This document shows, one piece after another, positions 10,602-24,272 of a stretch of DNA of 64,000 nt (positions are counted from its first letter, which is position 1; each line of letters starts with the position of its first letter). The stretch is from Thiomicrorhabdus sp. Milos-T2. GTDB taxonomy: Bacteria > Pseudomonadota > Gammaproteobacteria > Thiomicrospirales > Thiomicrospiraceae. Position numbers and translations under genes: made by a program. The stretch covers positions 310,001 through 374,000 of the forward strand of contig NZ_KL370891.1 in NCBI RefSeq assembly GCF_000702325.1, written 5' to 3'. Under the pieces are notes generated by a model that worked only from the letters and a program-made list of their open reading frames with translations, searched no databases and was not told where the DNA came from.

Positions 10602-12041
10602 TTAGGTATAGAGTTTAGGTTCTTGCCAATTGCCACCAAGCGCTTTGTATAAATTGACCAAAGCAGTTGAGTGAGCAAGTTTTAAATTTACGCTATTTAT
10701 TTCAGCATTAAATAAGTTTCTTTGGGCATCCAATACTTCTAGATAACTTGAATAACCTGCGTCAAAGCGTTTTTGCGACAGATCCAATATTTGTTTAAGT
10801 GCGGCCACTTGGCGTTGTTGTGCCGCTAGTTGCTGGCTGCTGCCTTTAAGGTTAGTCAGTGCATCCAACACCTCTTTAAAAGCCGTACGGATGGTTTGTT
10901 GGTATTGAATGACTAACGCTTGCTTTTGTGCCTTAGTTATTTGTACCTGCGATTGACGTTTTCCATAATCAAAAATGGGGGCGTTAATTGCAGCTGAAGT
11001 ACTCCAGCTAACAGAATCATCGGTAAATAGTTCATTTAAGGCTTCACTTGAAAAACCGAACAAACCACTCAAACTGATAGACGGATACAATGCGGCTTTG
11101 GCGGCACCAATATTTGCATTGCCGGCAATGAGCTTTTGTTCCATCGCAATAATATCAGGACGACGTTCTAACAAGTCAGAAGGTAATCCTTTAGGAATCG
11201 GCAAACTATTAAGTGAGTTTAAGTCTTTAGTTTTAAATGAGCTGGCAGTCATTTGCGTTAAGGCTTTTGGCGATTGACCGACTAACACTGATAGGGCATG
11301 AAGCTGTAAATCACGTTGCTGCTGTTGCTGTTGTAGAGAAATTTCAACCGAGGCTAGTTCAGATTCCGCTTGGTGAACATATAACGGGGTAACACTGCCA
11401 TATTTAAGCTGTGTTTGTCGAAGTTGTAAGGCACCTTGACGAGATTCAACTGTGTTTTGCGCAATATGCACATTTTGATTTAAGGCCATTAAATTTAAGT
11501 AAGCTTGGGCGACTGCGGCAGTGACACTTAATTTAATGGTTTTTTGATCTGCTTCAGTCGCTTTTAAGTTGGCCTGTGCTTGTTGTTTAAGGGCATCATT
11601 TTTTCCCCATAAATCAATCTCATAACTTAATAAGCCCCCTAAAGAAAAAGCACCATAAGTATATTCAGAACCAACAGGGTATTCATTTAAGGAATTTTTT
11701 GATCTTCCCAATGAACCGCTTGAACTTAACTCTGGATATTGAGCGGCTTTACTTTGATTTGACACTGAACGTGCCTGTTGCAAGTTAAGCTGAGCTAGCG
11801 CAATATCACTATTGTGAATAAGCGCTTCTTTGATTAATTTTGCTAAGGTGTCATCGCCAGACAGTTGATTCCACCAGGCCTGTTCATTTAGATTTAATTG
11901 ATTACCGACTTTAGGCTGTAAGTGATTCCAACTGCTCTGAGTTGGCAGTTCTACTTTAGGTTTTTCATAAGTCGGTATTTGGCTACAACCTGTCAACATT
12001 AAGACAGGAACAAGAGCCGAAATGGTGATTAAATTTCTCAT
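10602..12041 (-). CDS. Outer-membrane efflux lipoprotein (OprM/NodT family)
   Basis: A 479-residue outer-membrane factor. The lipobox LTGC (Cys19) follows a short signal peptide, as in OprM-type lipoproteins. Two repeated TolC-type efflux domains are present (EQAWWNQLSGDDTLAKLIKEAL...; the NIGAAKAALYPSISLSG and DAGYSSYLEVLDAQRNLFNAE signatures). It forms the exit duct for the adjacent RND pump. Its ATG overlaps the pump's TAA by one base (TAATG), so the genes are translationally coupled. The gene carries a near-palindrome match at 11873. Confidence 0.94.
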   Translation of the reverse strand: MRNLITISALVPVLMLTGCSQIPTYEKPKVELPTQSSWNHLQPKVGNQLNLNEQAWWNQLSGDDTLAKLIKEALIHNSDIALAQLNLQQARSVSNQSKAAQYPELSSSGSLGRSKNSLNEYPVGSEYTYGAFSLGGLLSYEIDLWGKNDALKQQAQANLKATEADQKTIKLSVTAAVAQAYLNLMALNQNVHIAQNTVESRQGALQLRQTQLKYGSVTPLYVHQAESELASVEISLQQQQQQRDLQLHALSVLVGQSPKALTQMTASSFKTKDLNSLNSLPIPKGLPSDLLERRPDIIAMEQKLIAGNANIGAAKAALYPSISLSGLFGFSSEALNELFTDDSVSWSTSAAINAPIFDYGKRQSQVQITKAQKQALVIQYQQTIRTAFKEVLDALTNLKGSSQQLAAQQRQVAALKQILDLSQKRFDAGYSSYLEVLDAQRNLFNAEINSVNLKLAHSTALVNLYKALGGNWQEPKLYT

Positions 12042-15000
12042 TATTTAGACTCCATTGGTGAGTTTTCAATCGCTTTTTTATCTGTTTTTTTGAAAGAGAA
12101 TCTTTCAGATATGCCCGCAACCCAACGGAAAAACATGGGTACAAATAGTGGTGCTAATAAAGTTGCCGCAATCATTCCTCCTACCAGGCCTGTACCCACT
12201 GCGTGACGTGCTGCAGCACCTGCTCCTGTGCTCAACATAAGAGGTATTGCAGCAATAGTAAAGGCCAAAGAGGTCATCACAATCGGTCTAAATCTTAATT
12301 TAGCCGCTGTTTCTGCCGCTTCAACCAATGACAGTCCTTGTTTGTGTTTTTGTATGGCAACTTCAACAATAAGTATGGCATTTTTGGCAGATAGACCGAT
12401 TAAGGTTAATAAGCCCAGCTGGAAGTAAATATCATTTTGTAGGCCACTTAATTTAACCGCAATAGTTGCTCCTAATACGGCAAATGGAACAGCGGTTAGC
12501 ACCGCAAGAGGAATTGACCAGTGTTCATACTGTGCCGCTAAAATTAAGAAGACAAACAGTAAACCAAATATAAAGGCCTGGTTCCCCGAGCTAGAAGACT
12601 GTTTTTCTTGGAATGCTTCACCCACCCAACCTAAGCTATAACCCGTTGGCATGACGTCATTAGCCACTTCTTCAAAAGCCGCTATCGCTTGACCAGAACT
12701 ATAGCCTGGAGCAGGTTCTCCCATTAACTTAGCGGCAGGGAAAAGGTTAAAACGATCCACAATATCGGCACCTGTGCTACGTTTTATGCTAACTAAGGCA
12801 CTTAAAGGAACCATTTGACCAGTTTGTGAACGCACAAAAACTTGAGCTAAATCTTCTGGTTTTTCACGGAAGTTAGATTCAGACTGTAAGTTCACTTTAT
12901 AGATACGACCATATAAATTGAAGTCATTCACATAAAGCGTTCCAAAGGTCGCTTGCATTGCAGAAAAGACATCCGCAACAGGTATTTGCATCGCTTGTGC
13001 TTTTTCACGGTCTAAAGTGATTTCATATTGAGGAACTTTAGTGGAGAAAGTTGTCCGTACCGATTTTAATTCAGGGCGTGCCGTGGCCTTTTTAATCAAT
13101 TCGTCGGTGACTCTACTTAAGGCTAAAGAGCCATCTCCAGTACGATTTTGTAAATAGGCTTCAAAACCACCTGTCATACTCATTCCCATAATGGTTGGCA
13201 TGCCAATTGGAATACTAAACGCATCTGGAATCGCCATCAACTGACCAAATAGTTGACCTAAAATCGCTTGTAAACTTTCGTCTGGTGCAGTTCTCTCATC
13301 CCAAGGTTTTAAGCTGACAAAAGAGACCGCGGCATTGGATTTATTGGTAAATGTTTGTAAATCAAACCCAGCAAAACTGATTGCATGAGCCACACCAGGG
13401 TGTTGGCGTAGCATTTCTGACGATTTATCACGAACCACCTCGGTACGAGACAATGAAGCCGCTGGCGGTAAATAGTTAAGTACAAACATAGTCCCCTTAT
13501 CTTCTTGGGGAAGTAGGCCTTTTGGAACAGTGCCTAATGTTTGATAGGTTATCGCTACCAGGCCTGCAAAAAGTAATACGCTGATTAAGCTGTAACGCAT
13601 AATCGTTCTAACACCCGCTGTAAACCCACTGGTAATGCGTTCAAAAAAGCGATTAAAGTATAAGAAAAAGCCTGTGTGTTTTTGATGTGCGGATTGTAAT
13701 ATATTGGCACATAAAGCGGGTGTTAAGATTAGAGCCACAATTCCTGAGATAGTGACAGAAATAACAATGGTAATGGCAAACTGCTTATACATTTGACCTG
13801 TTAACCCACTAATAAACGCAACAGGGATAAACACCGCAGCAAGTACTAAAACAATCGCCACAATCGGGCCGGTTATTTCACTCATCGCTTTAATGGTTGC
13901 TTCACGTGGAGAGAGGTTTTCGGTTCGCATGATTCGTTCAACGTTTTCTACCACGATAATGGCGTCATCCACCACAATACCAATGGCGAGTATCATCCCA
14001 AACAAGGTCAGTTGGTTGATTGAGAATCCAAGTAGATACATTCCGATAAAGGTACCAATGATAGAGACAGGTATCGCCAAAACGGGAATCAACGTTGCGC
14101 GTGCATTTTGTAAAAATAGATAGACCACTAAAACCACTAAAATTAGGGCTTCAAACAGTGTGTAGATTACTTTCTCAATAGAGATATTGACAAATTCAGT
14201 CGTGTCATAAGGTACCGAATAATCAAGACCTTTTGGAAAACTATTAGAAAGTTCTGCTAATTTTTTATCAATAAGATCAGAGGTTTCTAAGGCATTTGCC
14301 CCAGGCTTTAAAAAGACCCCAATCGGTACCGTTGGTTTACCATCATAGGTTGCATTAAAATTGTAGTCTTGAGCCCCTAATTCAACCCGAGCAACATCTT
14401 TTAAACGTAAGGTATTACCTTGTTGTTCGGCTTTTAAAATAATGTTTTTAAACTGTTCAGGCGTTGATAAACGACCTTCAGTCGTGACGGTATAAGAAAA
14501 GGCTTGAGGATTTGCCATGGGTTCTTGGCCAAAACGTCCCGCAGCAAACGGAGAGTTTTGTGACTGAATGGCATTATAAACATCACTTGGTGTCAGTTTG
14601 TATTGTGCTAATTTATTTGGGTCTAGCCATATACGCATAGAGTAATCTTTAGAACCAAATTGGCGAGCCTCTCCCACGCCTGGAATACGGGCGAGTTCGT
14701 CTAAGACGTTAATTAAGCCGTAATTGGCAATAAATACGGTATCTAAACTCGAATCTCCAGAATAGAGCGAAATCACTTTTAAGATACTGGATGACTTTTT
14801 ATTGACATTGACACCAGCACGTTGAACTTCGTTTGGTAGTTTGCTTAATGCACCTTGAACCTTGTTATTAACATTAATATTTGCCTGGTCGATATCCGTA
14901 CCAATTTTAAAGGTAACGGTAAGCGTTAATGTCCCTGAAGATGAAGTCACTGAGTTGATGTACAACATGTTATCTACGCCATTAATCGCCTGTTCTAAAG

Positions 15001-15193
15001 GTGCTGCTACGGTTTGTGAAATGGTTTCGGCACTCGCTCCAGGGTAGGCGGCCGTTACCGCAACTTGTGGCGGTACTATTTCAGGATATTCAGCAATGGG
15101 TAAGCCTTTCATGGCAAGGAACCCTGCGATAATCACCACAAAAGACAGCACACTGGCTAAAACAGGGCGATCAATAAAAAATTTAGAAAACAT
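12041..15193 (-). CDS. HAE1-family RND multidrug efflux permease
   Basis: A 1050-residue inner-membrane drug/proton antiporter of the AcrB/MexB type. It starts MFSKFFIDRPVLASVL. The proton-relay Asp pair lies in helix 4 (AIGIVVDDAIIVVENVER). The porter domain has PGASAETISQTVAAPLEQAI and the C-terminal half FVFLILAAQYEHWSIPLAV and GLSAKNAILIVE. With the adaptor and outer-membrane factor it forms a complete tripartite pump. Near-palindrome matches occur at 12183 and 13557. Local TetR control is implied by the divergent regulator at 16574. Confidence 0.95.
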   Translation of the reverse strand: MFSKFFIDRPVLASVLSFVVIIAGFLAMKGLPIAEYPEIVPPQVAVTAAYPGASAETISQTVAAPLEQAINGVDNMLYINSVTSSSGTLTLTVTFKIGTDIDQANINVNNKVQGALSKLPNEVQRAGVNVNKKSSSILKVISLYSGDSSLDTVFIANYGLINVLDELARIPGVGEARQFGSKDYSMRIWLDPNKLAQYKLTPSDVYNAIQSQNSPFAAGRFGQEPMANPQAFSYTVTTEGRLSTPEQFKNIILKAEQQGNTLRLKDVARVELGAQDYNFNATYDGKPTVPIGVFLKPGANALETSDLIDKKLAELSNSFPKGLDYSVPYDTTEFVNISIEKVIYTLFEALILVVLVVYLFLQNARATLIPVLAIPVSIIGTFIGMYLLGFSINQLTLFGMILAIGIVVDDAIIVVENVERIMRTENLSPREATIKAMSEITGPIVAIVLVLAAVFIPVAFISGLTGQMYKQFAITIVISVTISGIVALILTPALCANILQSAHQKHTGFFLYFNRFFERITSGFTAGVRTIMRYSLISVLLFAGLVAITYQTLGTVPKGLLPQEDKGTMFVLNYLPPAASLSRTEVVRDKSSEMLRQHPGVAHAISFAGFDLQTFTNKSNAAVSFVSLKPWDERTAPDESLQAILGQLFGQLMAIPDAFSIPIGMPTIMGMSMTGGFEAYLQNRTGDGSLALSRVTDELIKKATARPELKSVRTTFSTKVPQYEITLDREKAQAMQIPVADVFSAMQATFGTLYVNDFNLYGRIYKVNLQSESNFREKPEDLAQVFVRSQTGQMVPLSALVSIKRSTGADIVDRFNLFPAAKLMGEPAPGYSSGQAIAAFEEVANDVMPTGYSLGWVGEAFQEKQSSSSGNQAFIFGLLFVFLILAAQYEHWSIPLAVLTAVPFAVLGATIAVKLSGLQNDIYFQLGLLTLIGLSAKNAILIVEVAIQKHKQGLSLVEAAETAAKLRFRPIVMTSLAFTIAAIPLMLSTGAGAAARHAVGTGLVGGMIAATLLAPLFVPMFFRWVAGISERFSFKKTDKKAIENSPMESK

Positions 15194-15235
15194 GGTTTTT
15201 CCTCAGATTAACGGTTTCATTTAATGGGTTTAATA

Positions 15236-15256
15236 CGGTGAGACCTTGCACGGTAA
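15236..15256. repeat. Possible decayed end of the 159-bp foldback
   Basis: GGTGAGACCTTGCACGG between the pump and adaptor genes resembles the foldback terminus with one base lost. No matching partner end is visible, so this is a weak call. Confidence 0.35.
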
Positions 15257-15274
15257 TAGACAACAAAGTCATTA

Positions 15275-16453
15275 TTATTCAGCGTGTTTTTTATCTGTTT
15301 TACCAGCGGTATTTGGTTTGTTTGGCAATATTGATACGGGGGTTTTAGGGCGTAACTTTATAAGGTTGTTTGTGACGACAATATCCCCATTAGATAAGCC
15401 AGAATCGACTAACCAATTTGAGCCTTTTTCATCCCCTAAATGAACAGGAGCTAAATCTGCAATGCCATCCGTAACCTTATAAACAAAAGATTGACCCCCC
15501 ATCTGTAAAACTGCTTTTTTAGGAACGATGGATACATTTTGACGAACTGAGTCGGTCATTCTTAAACGTACAAATGATCCAGGCATTAATTGTTTTGATT
15601 TATTATCAAATACGGCTCGTGCCTGAATGCTACCAGTTGTTGTGTTGATGTTGCTGTCAACATAATCAATTTTTCCAGAGGTAATCTCATCATCCTTTGA
15701 ATTGATGATTTGTGCCGTCCATCGGTTTTTAGGAAGCGCCTTGAGTTTGCCTGCCTGAATTTCTTTTTGCTGTTGAATATAATCGGCATCAGGAATAGCA
15801 AACACCACATTGATTACATCTAATTGGGTAATGTTAGTGAGTAGAGAATTTTCAGAATTTGAGCCAACTAAGCTTCCAATATCTTGTTGCTTAATACCAA
15901 CAATACCAGAGATTTCGGCACGAACTTCAGTGTAATCCAAATCAATTTGAGTTTCATTTAATGCCGCTTTTTGACCTTCTAAATCCGCCTTAGCTAATTC
16001 AAGGTTAGATAAAGCAGTATCGACTTCTTGCGCACTGACTGCTTTATTCTTATATAAGCCTTTAACACGGTTATATTCTCTTTTTGCTTGATTGAGGTTG
16101 GCTTTTGCAACATTTACTTGAGCTTTTGCCTTTAGCACCAATGCTCGATATTTACGATCATCAATTTTATAAAGCAGTTGTCCGGCCTTAACTTTTTGAC
16201 CTTCAGTAAAAAATTTCTTTTGTAGAATTCCACTCACTCGTGCATATATATCAACTTGTTGAGCGGCTTGTGCTCGGGCAGAGTAATCAGTATAAACAGG
16301 AATATTGTCTAAATGAACGGTTATCGCTGCAACAGGAACTGCTTGCGGTTTATGACTTGAATCTGCCGCAGAAACAAATAGAGGCATAAATAGTAATGCC
16401 CCAATAACACTTTGAATTAAACCTTTATTAGGATTTAAAAATGCTGAAAACAT
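15275..16453 (-). CDS. RND efflux periplasmic adaptor (membrane fusion protein)
   Basis: A 392-residue adaptor of the AcrA/MexA type. A signal peptide covers about residues 1-30. The lipoyl half-motifs follow (VDIYARVSGILQKKFFTEGQKVKAGQLLYKID), then an alpha-hairpin (ALVLKAKAQVNVAKANLNQAKREYNRVKGLYKNKAVSAQEVD) and the second lipoyl half (VRAEISGIVGI). No lipobox Cys is evident. It bridges the pump and the outer-membrane channel. It is the first gene of the operon, with the ribosome site AAAGGAA before the ATG. An inverted-repeat operator lies upstream. Confidence 0.93.
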   Translation of the reverse strand: MFSAFLNPNKGLIQSVIGALLFMPLFVSAADSSHKPQAVPVAAITVHLDNIPVYTDYSARAQAAQQVDIYARVSGILQKKFFTEGQKVKAGQLLYKIDDRKYRALVLKAKAQVNVAKANLNQAKREYNRVKGLYKNKAVSAQEVDTALSNLELAKADLEGQKAALNETQIDLDYTEVRAEISGIVGIKQQDIGSLVGSNSENSLLTNITQLDVINVVFAIPDADYIQQQKEIQAGKLKALPKNRWTAQIINSKDDEITSGKIDYVDSNINTTTGSIQARAVFDNKSKQLMPGSFVRLRMTDSVRQNVSIVPKKAVLQMGGQSFVYKVTDGIADLAPVHLGDEKGSNWLVDSGLSNGDIVVTNNLIKLRPKTPVSILPNKPNTAGKTDKKHAE

Positions 16454-16488
16454 GGTAATTTCCTTTGTAAATAATCAATATTTTGAAG

Positions 16489-16510
16489 AAGTGTAGCATA
16501 CACTACACTT
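16489..16510. promoter_or_regulatory. Probable TetR operator between the efflux operon and its regulator
   Basis: AAGTGTAG and CTACACTT are perfect 8-base arms separated by CATACA. A second dyad, GTGTA-GCA-TACAC, is nested in the left part. The site lies between the divergent adaptor and TetR genes, where such repressors bind. Binding by the local TetR protein is inferred from position. Confidence 0.75.
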
Positions 16511-16573
16511 TTATGGCAATCACTTATGAGGTACAATACCCATAAAAATTAAAAGTGAATAATTAGCGATATT

Positions 16574-17209
16574 ATGCGAAAAGCAATACAACAATCCATT
16601 TCTGAGCCATGTAATAAAAGGGGCTTAGCGCGTCAGCAAAAATTTTTAGAAACAGCAGAAGAACTATTTTTGACCTCAGGCTATGCGAATACCAGTGTTA
16701 ATGAGGTTGTGAGATTATCGGGCGGTTCTTTAGGGACCTTATACCGTTTATTTGGTAATAAATTGGGTTTGTTTGAAGCGGTTTTTAAACGTCTGGCCAT
16801 GAACTTTTTTAGTGAATTAGAAGAAGGTGTGGTTTGGAGTGATGACGTAGAAAAAAGTTTGATGACCTTTGGGCGGCATATGCAAAGTGTTGTGTTAAAA
16901 CATGATGGCATTGCTATTTATCGTTTAGTTTTAATGGAAAACAATGACGATCAAAAAGAGATTCAAAGAATTTACTATAAATATGGGCCTCAGGTTGGCA
17001 TAGAAATGTTAGCTTCTTATTTGAGAGAACAGGTAAGGCTCAATAAAATTGCGCCTATCAATGCTGATATTGCTGCCACCCAATTTATTGAAATGGTTAA
17101 GGGATTATTTGTGAATAGACTGCTTTTTGGTGAAGATATTTCAGAAGAAGAGGTGGAAATAGCTTTGGTTCAAGGCGTGCAAATTTTTATGAAAGGTATT
17201 AGTAAATAG
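16574..17209 (+). CDS. TetR-family transcriptional repressor of the efflux operon
   Basis: A 211-residue TetR/AcrR-type regulator. The N-terminal helix-turn-helix (about residues 18-65: FLETAEELFLTSGYANTSVNEVVRLSGGSLGTLYRLFGNKLGLFEAVF) fits the family consensus. The all-helical C-terminal part would bind inducer and dimerise. It is divergent from the RND operon and shares the operator-containing 120-base gap, so repression of both transcripts is the simplest reading. Confidence 0.92.
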   Translation: MRKAIQQSISEPCNKRGLARQQKFLETAEELFLTSGYANTSVNEVVRLSGGSLGTLYRLFGNKLGLFEAVFKRLAMNFFSELEEGVVWSDDVEKSLMTFGRHMQSVVLKHDGIAIYRLVLMENNDDQKEIQRIYYKYGPQVGIEMLASYLREQVRLNKIAPINADIAATQFIEMVKGLFVNRLLFGEDISEEEVEIALVQGVQIFMKGISK

Positions 17210-17318: not shown

Positions 17319-17329
17319 TTATCTAACAT

Positions 17330-17912
17330 ATTTTTTACTTTTTCCTAACTGATACTCGCTTAATGCGAGCATGGCTAAACCAGCGATAAACCCAAAAGTT
17401 AACGCATAGATATTGGTGAGATAACCGCCATAAGTAAACAGACTAAAGATCACTATTCCCACAATGATAGCGGTGATTGAACTGATAGCGGTGATTGAAC
17501 TGATAGCTGAAGTTTCTCGACCGAGTGCTAATCAGAATACCAGCGGTGCAAAAGCCGAATCTAGCATTCCCCAGGCATCTAAGACCAAATTAAAAATGGT
17601 TTGGTTATTACTCATTGCAAAACTTACGGCAACGACTAAGACGATAAACGTTGAAAATTTAGTTAGCCAAATTGATTGCGTCGGTGTTACCGTTTAATCT
17701 CGGCTTAAGAACGCTGAACAGGCTAGAATAAGTGAATCAACAGTCGACATGGTCGCGGCAAACAGGGCCTCTAAAATCAAACCAACAAATAGTGGGTGCA
17801 TGTTTTTTCCAGCAACTAAATAGTCTGATGGTGTCTATTTGCTTACAAAATAGCTGGAGACACTAATAAAAAAGAAGAGTAATAAAAAAGTGATAAAAGC
17901 ATATAGAATCAT
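17330..17912 (-). pseudogene. Decayed sodium:solute symporter (SSS/PutP-like)
   Basis: Reading leftward from an ATG at 17912 gives a membrane segment with an in-frame TAG, then DYLVAGKNMHPLFVGLI joined directly to LEALFAATMSTVDSLILACSAFLSRD. The second segment matches the late conserved helix of PutP-like symporters, so a large central part is deleted. Further stops occur after SRD and after APLVF, and the remnant continues to about GKSKKYVR near 17330. An 18-base tandem duplication lies at 17465-17500. An osmolyte transporter would fit next to the ectoine operon, but the substrate is not readable from the remnant. Confidence 0.8.
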
Positions 17913-17930: not shown

Positions 17931-18833
17931 TTAGCCATTGCTAGTTGTGCTTGTTAGGTGTTGATCAAGTAAGCTTTGAAACTCAGGTAGTTCCAGTAAG
18001 TTTGTAAAAACGGGATCGTCTGTAATTTGTTCGAAACTGCCTTCTGATAACTGGATGTTTTTTTCTAGGTAGTTTAAGGCTTCTGGAATTTTGTTCAGCA
18101 AGGCGTGTGCTCCGGCAAGTTGATAAAATGCATGGGCATTTTCAGGATCAAGCTTCAAAGCATTTTGGCAAAGGTTGATTGCCCATATAGGTTCATTAAT
18201 TTCCAATGCAGCATCGGCCTTGTAGGTTAACGCTTCTACATTTTCCGGATCAATTTCGAGTATTTGGTCGTAAATTGAAATTTTATTGTGACTGGAGTTT
18301 TCTTGAGCGGCTTTGAGCCAAAGTGTATGAATTTCTTGATGTCTTTCAAGTTTATTTTGTGCTTGCAGAATCCCCCTAGATTTTTTATTTAAGGCTTCTT
18401 CCATCTGGTCAAGGCGCTCTTCATAACTTCCTACTATGGCATTTACTTTTGAATCAGCTAAATGATGAATCTTGTCTTTGATATCTCGAATGGAGGTCCA
18501 ACCAAGCATCACTAGCACGGAGCTGACTCCAGCGATAAGATAGAAAAAGTATGTAATTGTATCGGTTGCGTAGCTAGTGACCTTATCAACGGTTCTAATT
18601 TCTCGATCAACCACTTCCTTGGTCAGATTGACCTCAAGTTTATGCATGTCGATGCGTAGTGCTTTAACTTCATCAACCAAGTATCGTTCAATAAAAGGGT
18701 TGTATAAAGGCTTTTTCAACTGATTAATATGTGCTGAAGCTTCTTCATCTGTAACTTGATCATCATTTGATATTGCTTTTATTGGATAAAGTAAACAAAA
18801 GATGATGAACAGCGTTGTGCTTAATGAGCGCAT
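17931..18833 (-). CDS. Membrane-anchored TPR protein in the ectoine operon (function unknown)
   Basis: A 300-residue protein. A signal peptide spans about residues 1-21. A charged coiled-coil region (about 45-85) leads to one membrane helix (TITYFFYLIAGVSSVLVMLGW, about 92-112). A second coiled coil follows (about 120-165), then at least two TPR units near 185-265 (IDPENVEALTYKADAALEI; LDPENAHAFYQLAGAHALL). The start overlaps the end of the aspartokinase gene by 13 bases, so the two are co-translated. I do not recognise a named family. The context suggests a role tied to ectoine synthesis or osmotic sensing, but this is inference only. Confidence 0.8.
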   Translation of the reverse strand: MRSLSTTLFIIFCLLYPIKAISNDDQVTDEEASAHINQLKKPLYNPFIERYLVDEVKALRIDMHKLEVNLTKEVVDREIRTVDKVTSYATDTITYFFYLIAGVSSVLVMLGWTSIRDIKDKIHHLADSKVNAIVGSYEERLDQMEEALNKKSRGILQAQNKLERHQEIHTLWLKAAQENSSHNKISIYDQILEIDPENVEALTYKADAALEINEPIWAINLCQNALKLDPENAHAFYQLAGAHALLNKIPEALNYLEKNIQLSEGSFEQITDDPVFTNLLELPEFQSLLDQHLTSTTSNG

Positions 18834-20263
18834 ATGGCGTTCCCATGGTTGTGAACTTCAATTAGACTTTGGTGAAGGGCTTTTATTGATATTTCATAAT
18901 CCGCTTCATTCACAAAAAACTGCATTTCTACTTGGCGTGTATTCTGATGAATAGCTTCGATATTGATTCCATTTTCATACAGGGTACTGACAGCATTGTT
19001 CAAGAAACCTTTAATGCGCATGTCACTTCCCATGGCTGAAACCAGAGAAACTTTGCTGTTCTGTATCGATGCATTGGGTAGTTTTTCTTGTAACTGTTTG
19101 GTTAAACGATTCACTTTTTTCAAAGAGGCATCGACAAAAATGGTGATAGTGTTTGCATTAAAGTCTTTATTGATGACTTTGCATTTTAGACGATTAGAAA
19201 TTTCGAGCAGTTGTTGTTCATAAAAAACTCGATTACCCATCATATCTTGGTCAAAAATTTCTACGGCTAATAAACGTTGCATACCGGCAATAATCTCAAC
19301 CTGGGGCGCTTCACTCTTATAATCTTCTGTAATGAGTGTTCCGTGGTGTTCAGGATCAAATGTGTTTTTAATGCGTAAAGGTATTTGCTGTTTTCTTAAG
19401 CCTTGAGCTGCACTAGGATGGATGGCCTCCATGCCTAAGTTTGCAAGTTGATCAGCTATGTCATAATTGGTTTTACCAATAGGGACAACTTGTTCTTCAC
19501 CTACTAATCGTGGATCTGCACTGCTTAGATGGTATTCTTTATGAATAACCGCTTCTGAAGCCTTTAATTTGACGGCAATTCGACTAAAGGTCATTTCACT
19601 GTAACCACGGTCATAGGTTTGCATGAGGTTTTCAGAACAGTGTGTGTAGCCCGTTACAATCGGAAGAGTTTGGCTGAGGTCAATTTCAGAAAAATGAATT
19701 GATATCATTTCATCTAATGAAAGTGGGTTTTCAGTTTGCCAACCAGTCAAATCAACAAATTGGGTATTGATGCCTTCGGACTTTAAAAGATGCGTTAAAT
19801 TCCAAGCGCTGTGTGCTTCCCCAAGGCTTGCGAGGAGCTCTCGAACGGTTAGTAGATGGCTTTCGAGCGAAAAATGACCATGACGACATAGGTTTTGTAA
19901 GTAGTTTAATAATTGCTCGGTCTCTGCAATTCGCTTGTTAATAAAGTGATTAGCTTGAAACGCCATATCCGAATCGTCAAAAAAGTTAGCGTTGATATGA
20001 TTTAGCTTTTGGCCGAGATCTTCAAGTGCAACTTGCCAGTCTGCATCTGTATCATCATTTGCAAATAGTCCATATACGCCTGGTTTTCCAGACTTTTTAT
20101 GCTCTAAAAGATCATCTGTTACACCGCCATAAGCGGATACTACGAAAATTCGATTATAAGGGTTTTCTGGTAAGAGCATGATGTTATCACGTACGGCTTG
20201 ATATTGACTCATTGAGGTGCCACCGATTTTCTCGACACTGAGTTTATTGTTTCTGTTGGACAT
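18821..20263 (-). CDS. ask: Ectoine-specific aspartate kinase (Ask_ect)
   Basis: A 480-residue aspartokinase that phosphorylates aspartate to feed ectoine synthesis. It starts with the kinase motif VEKIGGTSM and contains RIFVVSAYGGVTDDLLEHKK, typical of the Ask_ect subgroup, plus GYSEMTFSRIAVKLKASEAVIHKEY. Two C-terminal ACT domains cover about residues 330-475. A feedback-resistant form clustered with ectABC is known from other halophiles. It is separated from ectC by a 72-base gap with a terminator-like hairpin, so its expression may be lower than that of ectABC. Confidence 0.93.
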   Translation of the reverse strand: MSNRNNKLSVEKIGGTSMSQYQAVRDNIMLLPENPYNRIFVVSAYGGVTDDLLEHKKSGKPGVYGLFANDDTDADWQVALEDLGQKLNHINANFFDDSDMAFQANHFINKRIAETEQLLNYLQNLCRHGHFSLESHLLTVRELLASLGEAHSAWNLTHLLKSEGINTQFVDLTGWQTENPLSLDEMISIHFSEIDLSQTLPIVTGYTHCSENLMQTYDRGYSEMTFSRIAVKLKASEAVIHKEYHLSSADPRLVGEEQVVPIGKTNYDIADQLANLGMEAIHPSAAQGLRKQQIPLRIKNTFDPEHHGTLITEDYKSEAPQVEIIAGMQRLLAVEIFDQDMMGNRVFYEQQLLEISNRLKCKVINKDFNANTITIFVDASLKKVNRLTKQLQEKLPNASIQNSKVSLVSAMGSDMRIKGFLNNAVSTLYENGINIEAIHQNTRQVEMQFFVNEADYEISIKALHQSLIEVHNHGNAICAH

Positions 20264-20335: not shown

Positions 20336-20728
20336 TTATTCTGGCAGGTTGTAAGAGCCATCTTTGTCATGGGTTTCACGACCCGTCACTGGCGGGTTGA
20401 AAACACAAACCATACGCATCTGAACCCCTTTGTTGGCACTTAGAATATGCTGGTCATTCTCATTTAAAGCATAAACGGTACCTTCCTTTATTGGGTGGGT
20501 AATCCCAGTCGTTTTATCATATATTTGACCTTCACCTTCAATGCAGTAGACAGCTTCTAAATGGTTTTTATACCAAAGGTGTAAATCTTCATTTGGTTTG
20601 ATTAGTGTGTCATGTAGCGAGAATCCCATACCATCTTTGGCTAACAATAAACGACGGCTATTCCATTGTTGGCTGTCAACATCGGCTTCTGTTCCAATAA
20701 TGTCATCATATAAGTTACGAACAATCAT
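20336..20728 (-). CDS. ectC: L-ectoine synthase
   Basis: A 130-residue cupin that cyclises N-gamma-acetyl-diaminobutyrate to ectoine. It starts MIVRNLYDDIIGTEADV and has the cupin residues in LHLWYKNHLEAVYCIEGEGQIYD and LNENDQHIL, with FNPPVTGRETHDKDGSY near the end. It matches the family length. It starts one base after the ectB stop and is the third gene of the operon. Confidence 0.97.
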   Translation of the reverse strand: MIVRNLYDDIIGTEADVDSQQWNSRRLLLAKDGMGFSLHDTLIKPNEDLHLWYKNHLEAVYCIEGEGQIYDKTTGITHPIKEGTVYALNENDQHILSANKGVQMRMVCVFNPPVTGRETHDKDGSYNLPE

Positions 20729-20729
20729 T

Positions 20730-21992
20730 TTATACTTCCTGTGTAATTACTTTTTTAATCGCATTTTGAAGAATATCAAAGCCTTCATTAATTAATTCTT
20801 CAGAAATAACTAATGGCCCTAGGAACTTAATTACTTCGCTATCGGCTCCAGCGGTTTCAATGACCAATCCATTATCAAAAGCGGTTGAACAAATAGCCGA
20901 TGTTAGTTCTGGTTTTTTAAACTCCATACCCCAAATAAAACCGTGGCCACGAATTTCACGAATTAGGTTTGGAAAGGCTAGAGCAATCTCTTCCATACGT
21001 TTTTGAACAATTTTAGATTTAGCTTTGGTTTGCTTAACCAGTTCATCATCTGCCCAATATTTTTTAAGTGCGGCGGTTTGTGCAACAAAGGCCAGGTTGT
21101 TTCCACGGAAAGTTCCAGAATGCTCGCCAGGACTCCATTTGTCTAGTTCTGGTTTCATTAAAACTAAAGACATTGGATGACCCGCACCAATTGATTTGGA
21201 TAGGGTGACAATATCAGGTACAACACCTGCACGTTCAAAACTAAAAAACTCACCAGAGCGACCGTTGCCAACTTGAATATCATCAACAATCATTAAGATA
21301 TCGAAATCATCACAGATTTTACGTAGGGACTGTAGCCATTCTTCTCCCGCTACGTTAATCCCTCCTTCAGCTTGAATTGTTTCTAAAACAATTGCCGCAG
21401 GGAGTTCTGTTCCAGAAGAGTCATCTTCAATAATTTTACGTAGGTAAGCCATCGTATCGACTTTGTCGCCTAGGTAGTTGTGAAATGGTACTTGGTAGGT
21501 ATAACCAGGTACACCGTAGTTGTCATCATGATAATAACTGTTACCGGTAATGCTTAAAGATCCCATCGACATGCCATGGAAACCATTGGTAAAAGACATA
21601 ACTTGTTTACGGCCTTTTACTTTACGTGCGATTTTAAGAGCAGTTTCAATTGCGTTAGTGCCAGTAGGTCCTACAAATTGTAATTTATAATCTAATTCAC
21701 GAGGTTTTAGAATGATATTCACAAAGGTTTCTATAAAGTCACGCTTGGCAACGGTAGCCATATCTAAGGCGTGACTGATACCATTATTTTGTAAATATTC
21801 GATAACGGCGTTATTAATAACCTCATTATTGTGACCGTAGTTTAATGCGCCAGCTCCTGCAAAGAAATCGATATATCGCTTGCCACCTTCATCCCAGATT
21901 TCAGCCATTTTAGCTGTGCTAAACACTGTTGGAAAAGAACGTACATAACCTCGTACTTCAGATTCGTATTCATTGAAAATTGATAAAGACAT
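20730..21992 (-). CDS. ectB: Diaminobutyrate-2-oxoglutarate transaminase
   Basis: A 420-residue class III aminotransferase converting aspartate semialdehyde to L-2,4-diaminobutyrate, the first committed ectoine step. Visible are FNEYESEVRGYVRSFPTVF at the start, FVGPTGTNAIETALKIARK (cofactor phosphate site), IVDDIQVGNGRSGEFFSFE (PLP aspartate) and TLSKSIGAGHPMSLVL with the PLP lysine. It is 17 bases from ectA. Confidence 0.97.
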   Translation of the reverse strand: MSLSIFNEYESEVRGYVRSFPTVFSTAKMAEIWDEGGKRYIDFFAGAGALNYGHNNEVINNAVIEYLQNNGISHALDMATVAKRDFIETFVNIILKPRELDYKLQFVGPTGTNAIETALKIARKVKGRKQVMSFTNGFHGMSMGSLSITGNSYYHDDNYGVPGYTYQVPFHNYLGDKVDTMAYLRKIIEDDSSGTELPAAIVLETIQAEGGINVAGEEWLQSLRKICDDFDILMIVDDIQVGNGRSGEFFSFERAGVVPDIVTLSKSIGAGHPMSLVLMKPELDKWSPGEHSGTFRGNNLAFVAQTAALKKYWADDELVKQTKAKSKIVQKRMEEIALAFPNLIREIRGHGFIWGMEFKKPELTSAICSTAFDNGLVIETAGADSEVIKFLGPLVISEELINEGFDILQNAIKKVITQEV

Positions 21993-22009: not shown

Positions 22010-22540
22010 TTAAAATAGGGTATTGATTAAGTTTTGGTTGTAAGGAGCACGTAAGCTATAAAGTTCTTCTGCTTCATGCCCTAAGTCTCCAAAGTGCTTT
22101 TCTTCAAGAAAATTTTCAACACTCACCGTTAAACGGTATTGCTCAGCAAAACTTTTAAACAGGTTTTGTGATGCTTTGTTGGATGGACTTATCGTGCAAC
22201 AAATCTCAGTTACAGTCGGTCTACGTTCTTGGTTTTTAACCAAGTGATAGAGTAGTTGTCTGCCTAAACCTTGGCCTCTGGCCTTTTCAGCAACGGCTAC
22301 TTGCCAAACAAATAGGCTGTCTTTTTCATCTGGACGGAAGTAGGCGGAAATAAAGCCGATGACTTCCTCATTTTGCACAGCAAGCACACAAGTATCTGCA
22401 AAGTGGGTTGCTTGTAAAAAATAGAGATAGCTAGAGTTTAAGTCTAGAGGTGGGGATTCTTTAATAAGTTCGTATATTTCAGCGCCATCATTAATAGTGG
22501 GCTTTCTAAATGTAATTAAGTTTTTATTATCAGGGTCCAT
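22010..22540 (-). CDS. ectA: Diaminobutyrate acetyltransferase
   Basis: A 176-residue GNAT-fold enzyme that acetylates diaminobutyrate at the gamma amino group. It starts with the EctA pattern FRKPTINDGAEIYELIKESPPLDLNSSYLYF and has the acetyl-CoA loop ARGQGLGRQLL. It is the first gene of the operon. An upstream 19-base palindrome at 22774 may be the operator. Confidence 0.97.
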   Translation of the reverse strand: MDPDNKNLITFRKPTINDGAEIYELIKESPPLDLNSSYLYFLQATHFADTCVLAVQNEEVIGFISAYFRPDEKDSLFVWQVAVAEKARGQGLGRQLLYHLVKNQERRPTVTEICCTISPSNKASQNLFKSFAEQYRLTVSVENFLEEKHFGDLGHEAEELYSLRAPYNQNLINTLF

Positions 22541-22974: not shown

Positions 22975-24272
22975 CACTAGTGTCCGGAATAATATTTCAG
23001 TACCACAATTCATATACCAGCCTCCCATAGCGGAAGTTGGTATTTCTTAAACTCTTCCCGTTGTTGTTTTCGCCTAAAGTATTCACTCTGCTGAATAGGT
23101 CTTTCAAACAACCCATGAGCAAGCCGCCAAAACGTTACTCTCAACGGTTCTGCTGACTTATTTTTCATCTGTTCAAGCTTAATCAATAGATACACAATAA
23201 GGGCTGATAGCACTTGGATACGAACAGCATTACTGTTTTGGCCAATGAAGCTTTTGATTTTGAGGTGTTGTTTAATCCATTTAAAAAATAATTCAATTTG
23301 CCAGCGTTGCTTGTATAGATGGGCAATCTCTTGAGCTGAACGCTCGAAGTCATTGGTAATCAATACCAATTCACCTTTATTATCGTCACGTTTGACAACA
23401 ACACGGCGCATCTGGAATTGACCAAGACGTTTTTTCTGGCTTGAACCACTAAACTCAATGCATTGGTCTTCAAGAATATGAGGGGCTTTTTCATCGAGTT
23501 CGTAGGATTGTATGACGGTAATTGCCGCTCTTTTTTTCAAACGACAGACCAGCTGGATTTTTTGGTCATTGAGCTTTTTCCACCAGAGGTAGTCTAAGTA
23601 CCCTTTATCCATCACATAGGTTGAACCTGGTTCTAAATTCCACTCTCGTGCTTGAGTAATATCAGGAATATTGGCCTGTGTGATTTCAAAACAAACAGGG
23701 ACTTGGTTGGATAGTTCTAGTTGCATATGCAGCTTAAAGCCTGTGACTCGAGAACCTTGTACTGCCCAGTCAAAACCTTTACCGAGCAGTTGAATTGGAG
23801 AAGAGTCTATTAGATAGGTAAAAGCGTGGAGTTCTTTTCGTAATTGTCGATTCACACCAGCCATGAGTTGTTGGCAAAGTGCTTGATAGACATCAGCAGA
23901 GCGTTTACGGTTTGCTTCAGATAATGTGCTGCGTTTCAGCTCTTTTACGCCTAAGTGGTAGTGGTGAGAGGATTGGGCGTTAAACCCTTCAACCAACTGG
24001 CGTAATGATTTAGTGCCACTAAGTTGTGCGTACATCATCGCGACTAATTGATTCCAGCTACTAAACCCTTTGGCGTGTTTGTCGGTTTGATATTGATGAA
24101 CAAGTGATTGAAAAGTGGTACGAATGGGTTTTAAAAATTGGGCAAATCGGGTAGAGTTAAACATAGCCGTAATCTCATTGTTTTTGAAGTCTATTTCGTG
24201 GTGGAAATACTTCTATCCTAGGAGTTACGGCTTTTTTGTCAAGGCTTTTAATATTTATTCCGGACACTAGTG
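22975..24272 (-). mobile_element. IS4-family insertion sequence, 1298 bp, copy 1, in the ACCAGGCCTGGT palindrome
   Basis: Terminal repeats are CACTAGTGTCCGGAATAA and its complement. The flanking duplication is CCAGGCCTGG (22965-22974 and 24273-24282), so the empty site was ACCAGGCCTGGT. The DNA looks the same as copy 2 at 33793. The 10-bp duplication fits IS4-type elements. Because CACTAGTG is itself a palindrome, the exact outer boundary could shift by a few bases. Confidence 0.92.
23010..24164 (-). CDS. IS4-family transposase (1298-bp IS, copy 1)
   Basis: A 384-residue DDE transposase. An N-terminal DUF4372-like region (FSSWNQLVAMMYAQLSGTKSLRQLVEGF) precedes catalytic D residues in YLIDSSPIQLL and YVMDKGYLDYLWW. 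The YREK signature with the catalytic E is in [19 protein letters not shown]. It is intact, and its protein is identical to that of copy 2, so both copies are recent and probably active. Confidence 0.95.
   Translation of the reverse strand: MFNSTRFAQFLKPIRTTFQSLVHQYQTDKHAKGFSSWNQLVAMMYAQLSGTKSLRQLVEGFNAQSSHHYHLGVKELKRSTLSEANRKRSADVYQALCQQLMAGVNRQLRKELHAFTYLIDSSPIQLLGKGFDWAVQGSRVTGFKLHMQLELSNQVPVCFEITQANIPDITQAREWNLEPGSTYVMDKGYLDYLWWKKLNDQKIQLVCRLKKRAAITVIQSYELDEKAPHILEDQCIEFSGSSQKKRLGQFQMRRVVVKRDDNKGELVLITNDFERSAQEIAHLYKQRWQIELFFKWIKQHLKIKSFIGQNSNAVRIQVLSALIVYLLIKLEQMKNKSAEPLRVTFWRLAHGLFERPIQQSEYFRRKQQREEFKKYQLPLWEAGI

Follow-up and report, generated by a model that had tools for sequence, protein, structure and literature searches.

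A TPR protein gene in the ectoine operon

The window analysed here, a stretch of 64,000 nucleotides, corresponds to positions 310001-374000 of contig 1 of genome G000 (hereafter the window's genome). It carries a complete ectABC-ask gene set on the minus strand, followed by a gene for a 300-aa membrane protein with tetratricopeptide repeats (TPR), hereafter the TPR gene, and by the remnant of a symporter gene (Table 1). When the open reading frames were re-read, the coordinates of the TPR gene and the 13 bases that it shares with ask proved to be those given in an earlier sequence-only reading of this DNA, which had also described a signal peptide, one membrane helix and TPRs; we recovered these as an N-terminal hydrophobic segment, one later transmembrane segment and TPR models over cut-off. 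A transposase-like gene, recognised by its appearance, is located at 23010-24164 on the same strand, about 0.5 kb upstream of ectA, and an apparent RND efflux operon with a TetR-type regulator (PF00440, PF14246) converges on the ectoine operon from positions 10602-17209.

Table 1. Features of the ectoine operon region, in window positions.
Feature	Position	Strand	Remarks
Gene for 300-aa membrane TPR protein	17931..18833	-	ATG start; putative signal peptide, then helices in the periplasm, membrane (one) and cytoplasm, and a TPR domain
ask, ectoine-type aspartokinase	18821..20263	-	NF006614, 744 bits vs cut-off 536
ectC, ectoine synthase	20336..20728	-	PF06339
ectB, diaminobutyrate transaminase	20730..21992	-	TIGR02407
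ectA, diaminobutyrate acetyltransferase	22010..22540	-	TIGR02406
TPR gene/ask overlap, 13 nt	18821..18833	-	TPR gene start codon within 3' end of ask
GGGAA within last ask codons	18840..18844	-	possible ribosome binding site of TPR gene, inferred from sequence
Codons of transmembrane segment, residues ~92-112	18498..18560	-	ends in invariant G111-W112
Codons of three TPR repeats, residues 165-266	18036..18341	-	repeat frame is our own assignment
Decayed Na+/solute symporter remnant	17322..17912	-	stop codons and internal deletion; intact gene follows TPR gene in relatives

The operon and its gene order are those of the ectABC-ask_ect-(ectD) operon with EctR, as described in the available parts of a review (Czech et al., 2018; PMC5924519) and of a 2014 paper on EctD (PMC3979721). 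The associated genes named in these parts are ectD, ask_ect and ectR. The TPR gene is not named in them, in agreement with its placement by the earlier reading outside the standard ectoine genes, and 'tpr' occurs 0 times in the text of PMC5924519. We found no paper that pairs ectoine biosynthesis genes with TPR proteins, a statement that leaves room for a mention of the gene in the original EctR papers or in the 2022 neighbourhood study; one TRAP-transporter paper containing both ectoine and tetratricopeptide terms (PMC5812351) does not treat it in the portion available.

The junction between ask and the TPR gene

Among 75 distinct loci in which the TPR gene is linked to ask, the distance between the two genes is -13 in 53, -16 in 18, and -10 and -4 in one each; in the remaining two (L147 and L150) they are separated by a gap. 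In the same 75 loci, the spacing between ectC and ask ranges from -92 to +1389, and the ectA-B, B-C and C-ask spacings are all variable, with the commonest value present in 6/71, 4/73 and 4/75 loci, respectively. The dN/dS of the TPR gene is 0.10 against its 93% identical relative and 0.03-0.07 in three other pairs. These low values, together with the overlap of 13 or 16 nt in 71 of the 75 loci, argue that the TPR gene is not a chance open reading frame.

The ask codons around the TPR gene start usually read GCN ATA TGY, and a GG-containing stretch that may be the ribosome binding site of the TPR gene, judging from its sequence, directly precedes the start across ask-linked loci. Six ask genes of the window's family that lack an adjacent TPR gene (L076-L080 and L086) encode tails ending in AIASH or AIAKH, with loss of the ATG. 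The gap in L147 and L150 is filled by an ectD-type gene (5237-6595 in L147, TIGR02408; same cluster in L150), and a signal-peptide-like reading frame persists after the ATATG of ask in both loci, suggesting that ectD was inserted into an older junction between ask and the TPR gene.

Distribution of the TPR gene and linkage to ectoine genes

A search of genome contigs with the single sequence detected no relative, and a search with a 30-row alignment detected 508 encoding stretches, of which the best 80 were taken. In the other searches, matches through the repeats only (G041, G046, G053, G056, G057, G014 and G227) were dropped as not orthologous. Genes for ectoine biosynthesis adjoin the TPR gene in 58 of these best 80 of 508 loci, a count that tilts towards close relatives and for which the class and phylum samples described below are the fairer check; the gene is unlinked in the other 22, including one (L161) in which the contig end cuts right after ectD. 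The linked loci among the best 80, with the TPR gene either overlapping ask or beside other ect genes, belong to at least 16 genera: Thiomicrorhabdus, Hydrogenovibrio, Thiomicrospira, Methylophaga, Gilvimarinus, Neomelitea, Marinimicrobium, Spongiibacter, Microbulbifer, Methylomicrobium, Methylotuvimicrobium, Aestuariicella, Zhongshania, Marinobacterium, Teredinibacter and Pseudomaricurvus.

Orthologs of the TPR gene are present in 31 of 62 genomes of the window's family (after removal of the repeat-only match in G014), and their products are 47-93% identical to the window protein in the 30-row alignment, from which one of the 31 was left out. All 31 carriers encode EctC, versus 13 of the 31 non-carriers (a fragment only in G071). 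The TPR gene follows ask behind the ect genes in 24 carriers and is located elsewhere in seven (G013, G019, G023, G024, G026, G078 and G080), all of them ectC-positive.

The class sample consists of 369 evenly drawn genomes, with 14 matches that become 13 TPR carriers once G227 is dropped; ectC is detected over cut-off in 53 of these genomes and an ectoine-type ask in 14 (13 over cut-off). The ectC gene is present in 11/13 carriers vs 42/356 non-carriers (Fisher test, 1.3e-8, relatedness of the genomes being ignored), and an ectoine-type ask in 9/13 carriers (that of G269 below the family cut-off) vs 5/356 non-carriers. Since the latter five genomes (G164, G205, G209, G222 and G310) have an ectoine-type ask and no TPR gene, ectoine systems can do without this gene. 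Physical linkage to ect genes is observed in nine of the 13 carriers, eight that have the TPR gene on the same contig as ectC, plus G327, whose TPR contig ends inside ask. The ectC gene is elsewhere in the genome in G026 and G118 and was not found in G169 and G199. The 58 linked loci among the best 80 of 508 and the nine linked carriers of the class sample bear out the association with ectoine genes put forward in the sequence-only reading: homologues are not found mostly away from these genes.

In the phylum sample, the TPR gene has matches in 13 of 299 genomes, four of which lack ectC (G481, G660, G618 and G199). Of 13 carrier genomes searched for ectC, five were negative, these four and G169 of the class sample. 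Relatives from the ectC-negative genomes are among the most divergent (243-294 bits) and may be paralogues with a different function. The TPR family is thus not confined to ectoine producers, and it is some of the most divergent members that extend it.

In a tree of 116 rows, labelling the copies as ect-linked, EctR-linked or solo requires 12 changes vs 35.9 in shuffles. The five solo copies from the window's genus are placed within ect-linked copies in this quick tree, pointing to an exit from the operon. On the smaller side of the midpoint root, divergent solo and ect-linked rows are interspersed, and long branches leave the deepest joins unsure.

Architecture of the TPR protein

The 300-aa protein matches three TPR models of Pfam (TPR_17, TPR_19 and TPR_1) and one of NCBIfam (TPR_END_plus, at residues 235-289) over cut-offs, and no Pfam or NCBIfam family other than TPR models exceeded its cut-off. 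It is thus a TPR protein both by its 34-residue repeats over Pfam cut-offs and by its TPR fold matches. In 62 relatives, the mean K/R content is 3.0 after the membrane segment vs 1.0 before it, which makes an N-out/C-in topology likely.

An AlphaFold model built from 62 rows (mean pLDDT 88.6, pTM 0.63) presents one helix, from residue 46 to 110, that spans both the periplasmic part and the membrane, a break at the invariant G111-W112, a second helix from 113 to 177, then TPR helix pairs, with helices continuing to residue 298. The PDB matches listed cover mainly residues 161-287 (Z up to 16.1); the match list thus reflects the TPR domain, and the helices of the periplasm and membrane were folded only as part of the full-length model. 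Among the 50 matches listed, the TPR domains of the co-chaperones SGT, CHIP and Hop are some of the best (residues ~161-287, Z 14.5-16.1), but this likeness is that of the generic TPR fold and the clamp residues differ. MamA, LapB and other bacterial TPR proteins are matched weakly in NCBIfam through the repeats, far below the curated cut-offs.

Five residues of the predicted TPR groove (E200, Y204, D207, L210 and Q238) are the same in all 62 rows. The mean entropy of groove positions is 0.77 bits vs 1.61 bits for other non-core TPR positions (permutation, 0.00045), a conservation that suggests one preferred partner. Conservation is equally strict in parts of the periplasmic stretch 39-51 and of the membrane segment.

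Carboxylate-clamp TPR domains of the Hop/CHIP type are characterised by the residues K5, N9, N6, K2 and R6. At the corresponding positions, the window protein has H169, L173, Y204, H234 and Q238 in our own repeat frame. We rejected a carboxylate-clamp ligand, since in the 62 rows, with the same repeat frame, no clamp residue is among the three commonest at its position.

Genes downstream of the TPR gene

The first gene after the TPR gene in the 75 distinct ask-linked loci encodes a sodium:solute symporter (PF00474) in 32, a BCCT transporter (PF02028) in five, MdoG (PF04349) in two and something else in 36; these identities, like those of the EctR-like and liv genes mentioned below, come from Pfam/NCBIfam scans of one to three members per cluster, with BLAST clustering for the rest. 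The gaps between the TPR gene and the symporter gene are mostly 2-116 nt. The two loci with mdoG, a gene of osmoregulated periplasmic glucan synthesis, after the TPR gene at the end of the ectoine operon are from Gilvimarinus (L166 and L177); L301 is the genome of L177 a second time and is not a distinct third locus. In seven distinct loci of the Hydrogenovibrio type, the TPR gene is followed by a thioredoxin-like gene, then by an outer-membrane efflux gene. In L302 (genome G602), the TPR gene is divergent from a gene for a TRAP-type solute-binding protein (PF03480), and ectA, ectB and an EctR-like gene are located within 6 kb of it.

Symporters are known beside ectoine genes: importers of the EctI type (SSS family) adjoin ect clusters, according to the part available of PMC13342039, citing Czech et al. 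(2022), and in many of the loci studied here an SSF-family symporter gene comes right after the TPR gene. Unlike in those clusters, the TPR gene is located between ask and the symporter gene, and the symporters of our loci are assigned by family only. The part available of PMC7192451 reports that M. alcaliphilum 20Z takes up ectoine and names a TRAP-type transporter as a candidate; in L147 and L150, the symporter gene that follows the TPR gene encodes a further candidate ectoine importer.

These neighbours raise the possibility that the TPR protein is an accessory subunit or regulator of compatible-solute importers (SSF, BCCT, TRAP) and helps to recapture leaked ectoine. Such a role would fit the symporter gene that comes next, mostly within 2-116 nt, in 32 of the 75 loci, BCCT genes in six loci and the divergent TRAP-type gene of G602, as well as the import of hydroxyectoine and betaines by the SSS-type EctI (available part of PMC13342039). 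TPR proteins also partner transporters elsewhere, for instance TatT of the TPAT systems of Treponema, which works with a solute transporter (available part of PMC5812351). TatT is described there as a lipoprotein on the periplasmic side, whereas the TPR domain studied here is predicted to be cytoplasmic, with one membrane helix. Membership in the TPAT (TatT) group was rejected, given the predicted C-in topology and the presence of an adjoining DctP-type gene in one locus only, L302, among the neighbours scanned.

The window itself speaks against an importer accessory. Its symporter gene is a pseudogene, with in-frame stops and the loss of residues ~46-317 relative to the intact gene that lies 18 nt after the TPR gene in the 93% identical relative (G009), yet the TPR gene is under purifying selection. 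No other symporter copy was detected at 1e-20 in the window's genome, and no symporter match at this threshold in the TPR carriers G030, G036 and G008. The importer type is not constant either, and another gene comes next in 36 of the 75 loci. We therefore consider an importer accessory unlikely.

Unlinked copies and the EctR-like gene

In Marinobacter, the TPR gene is located between a divergent MarR gene and genes of a branched-chain amino-acid ABC transporter, the binding protein and LivH permease of which were identified in L299. The Marinobacter MarR protein is 60% identical to the MarR protein encoded divergently from ectA in L147, and in G583 and G548 the copy beside the TPR gene is the only close homologue, the next one being 32-33% identical; its position and this similarity led us to call the gene EctR-like. 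The EctR-like gene adjoins the TPR gene, and not ectC, in L298 and L299 (G548 and G583) and in named Marinobacter loci among L145-L198, and ectC and ask are about 0.8-0.9 Mb away from the TPR gene in G583 and G548. Overall, of 16 named Marinobacter loci, 13 had the MarR gene called next to the TPR gene; in L145, L175 and L176, it was not shown by the ORF caller. Ferrimonas sediminicola has a gene for a betaine-type BCCT transporter downstream of the TPR gene; a MarR gene of the same cluster is close by, and the stretch read contains no ect genes. An EctR-like MarR gene was also called at 39 of the 44 named, ect-linked loci that differ from the window's type by having either an ask less than 64% identical to that of the window or no ask.

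These arrangements are the basis of a proposal in which the TPR protein would be the missing osmotic signal input: its periplasmic and membrane helix would sense turgor or membrane state, and its groove would capture a cytoplasmic regulator, thereby releasing ectoine synthesis and uptake together. EctR, where present, is the suggested regulator because Marinobacter and, less closely, Ferrimonas keep the TPR and EctR-like genes together without ect genes in the stretch. The cue of EctR is stated to be unknown in the available part of PMC5924519. Three genomes from the window's genus (G000, G009 and G015) yielded no EctR homologue, such that another partner would be needed there, and we hold this signal-input scheme to be doubtful.

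Other solo copies have neighbours of a different kind. No osmotic neighbours were recognised at the solo copies of the window's genus (G013, G019, G023, G024 and G026), and the solo copies of group f184 have unrelated genes around them and are present in two genomes with neither ectC nor ask. The place in the operon may reflect nothing more than expression, and one could imagine a general envelope protein that merely borrows the ect promoter, with a function unrelated to ectoine. The five ectC-negative genomes among 13 carriers searched, the several solo loci with unrelated neighbours and the existence of ectoine systems without the TPR gene are in line with this explanation. It does not account for the strong co-occurrence with ectC and ask, for EctR-like, BCCT, SSF and mdoG genes as neighbours, or for the presence of ectC in every genome of the window's family that has an unlinked copy (seven in all), and it appears quite improbable to us.

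Candidate partners

The sequence-only reading had proposed two roles for the TPR protein, scaffolding of the pathway at the membrane or turgor sensing. As a membrane scaffold, it could bind Ask_Ect or EctABC in its groove and place the pathway at the membrane, next to the importer, with aspartyl phosphate being channelled into ectoine. The fixed overlap with ask fits such a role. The presence of an ectoine-type ask in nine of the 13 class-sample carriers is consistent with this model, as is the conserved Ask tail HNHGxAI of ask-linked loci; C-terminal tails are common TPR ligands. Several observations conflict with it. In M. buryatense 5G (G308; L158/L277), the TPR gene is kept beside ectABC without an ask between it and ectC, and a genome-wide search at 1e-60 detected no ask of the ectoine type. 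At the same threshold, 8 of 15 TPR carrier genomes searched, G308 included, gave no match to an ectoine-type ask, and we thus rejected an obligate partnership with Ask. Tails like HNHGxAI, which are possible ligands, also occur in genomes that have no TPR gene (G205, G310 and G011) and are lacking in the Asks of the TPR carriers G510, G591, G636 and G655. Finally, a pure Ask/Ect scaffold fits poorly with carriers devoid of any ectC or ask, and the carboxylate clamp of the Hop/CHIP type is not present. A membrane scaffold is accordingly rather unlikely in our view.

More generally, Ask, EctR, the symporter and EctC are each missing from some carrier genome, indicating that none of them is a single universal partner. 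Because each is dispensable, a strict enzyme scaffold seems less likely than a general osmostress adaptor, and the partners of the TPR protein may differ between lineages.

A putative membrane adaptor for compatible-solute management

Over wide distances, the TPR gene remains associated with ectABC-ask or, in the case of Marinobacter, with an EctR-like gene. The interpretation that we favour, with a probability of roughly 0.45, is that it is an uncharacterised member of the ectoine/compatible-solute gene set in halophilic Gammaproteobacteria, with a product acting as a membrane-anchored adaptor that is probably sensor-like. This reading draws on sequence comparisons and on the structural model, and the term sensor reflects the topology and the lack of an obligate enzyme partner. 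Translation of the TPR gene would be coupled to that of ask, such that the protein would be made when ectoine is made. The short conserved periplasmic module and the single continuous helix crossing the membrane could then report the state of the envelope or membrane under osmotic stress, and the cytoplasmic TPR groove would bind one specific protein partner and thereby adjust ectoine supply or solute uptake.

A major osmoprotectant of bacteria, ectoine is also produced industrially. The TPR protein is probably an overlooked part of salt-stress management in many marine and salt-loving bacteria and, if its proposed function holds, would offer a handle on osmosensing or on the coupling of ectoine synthesis to uptake.
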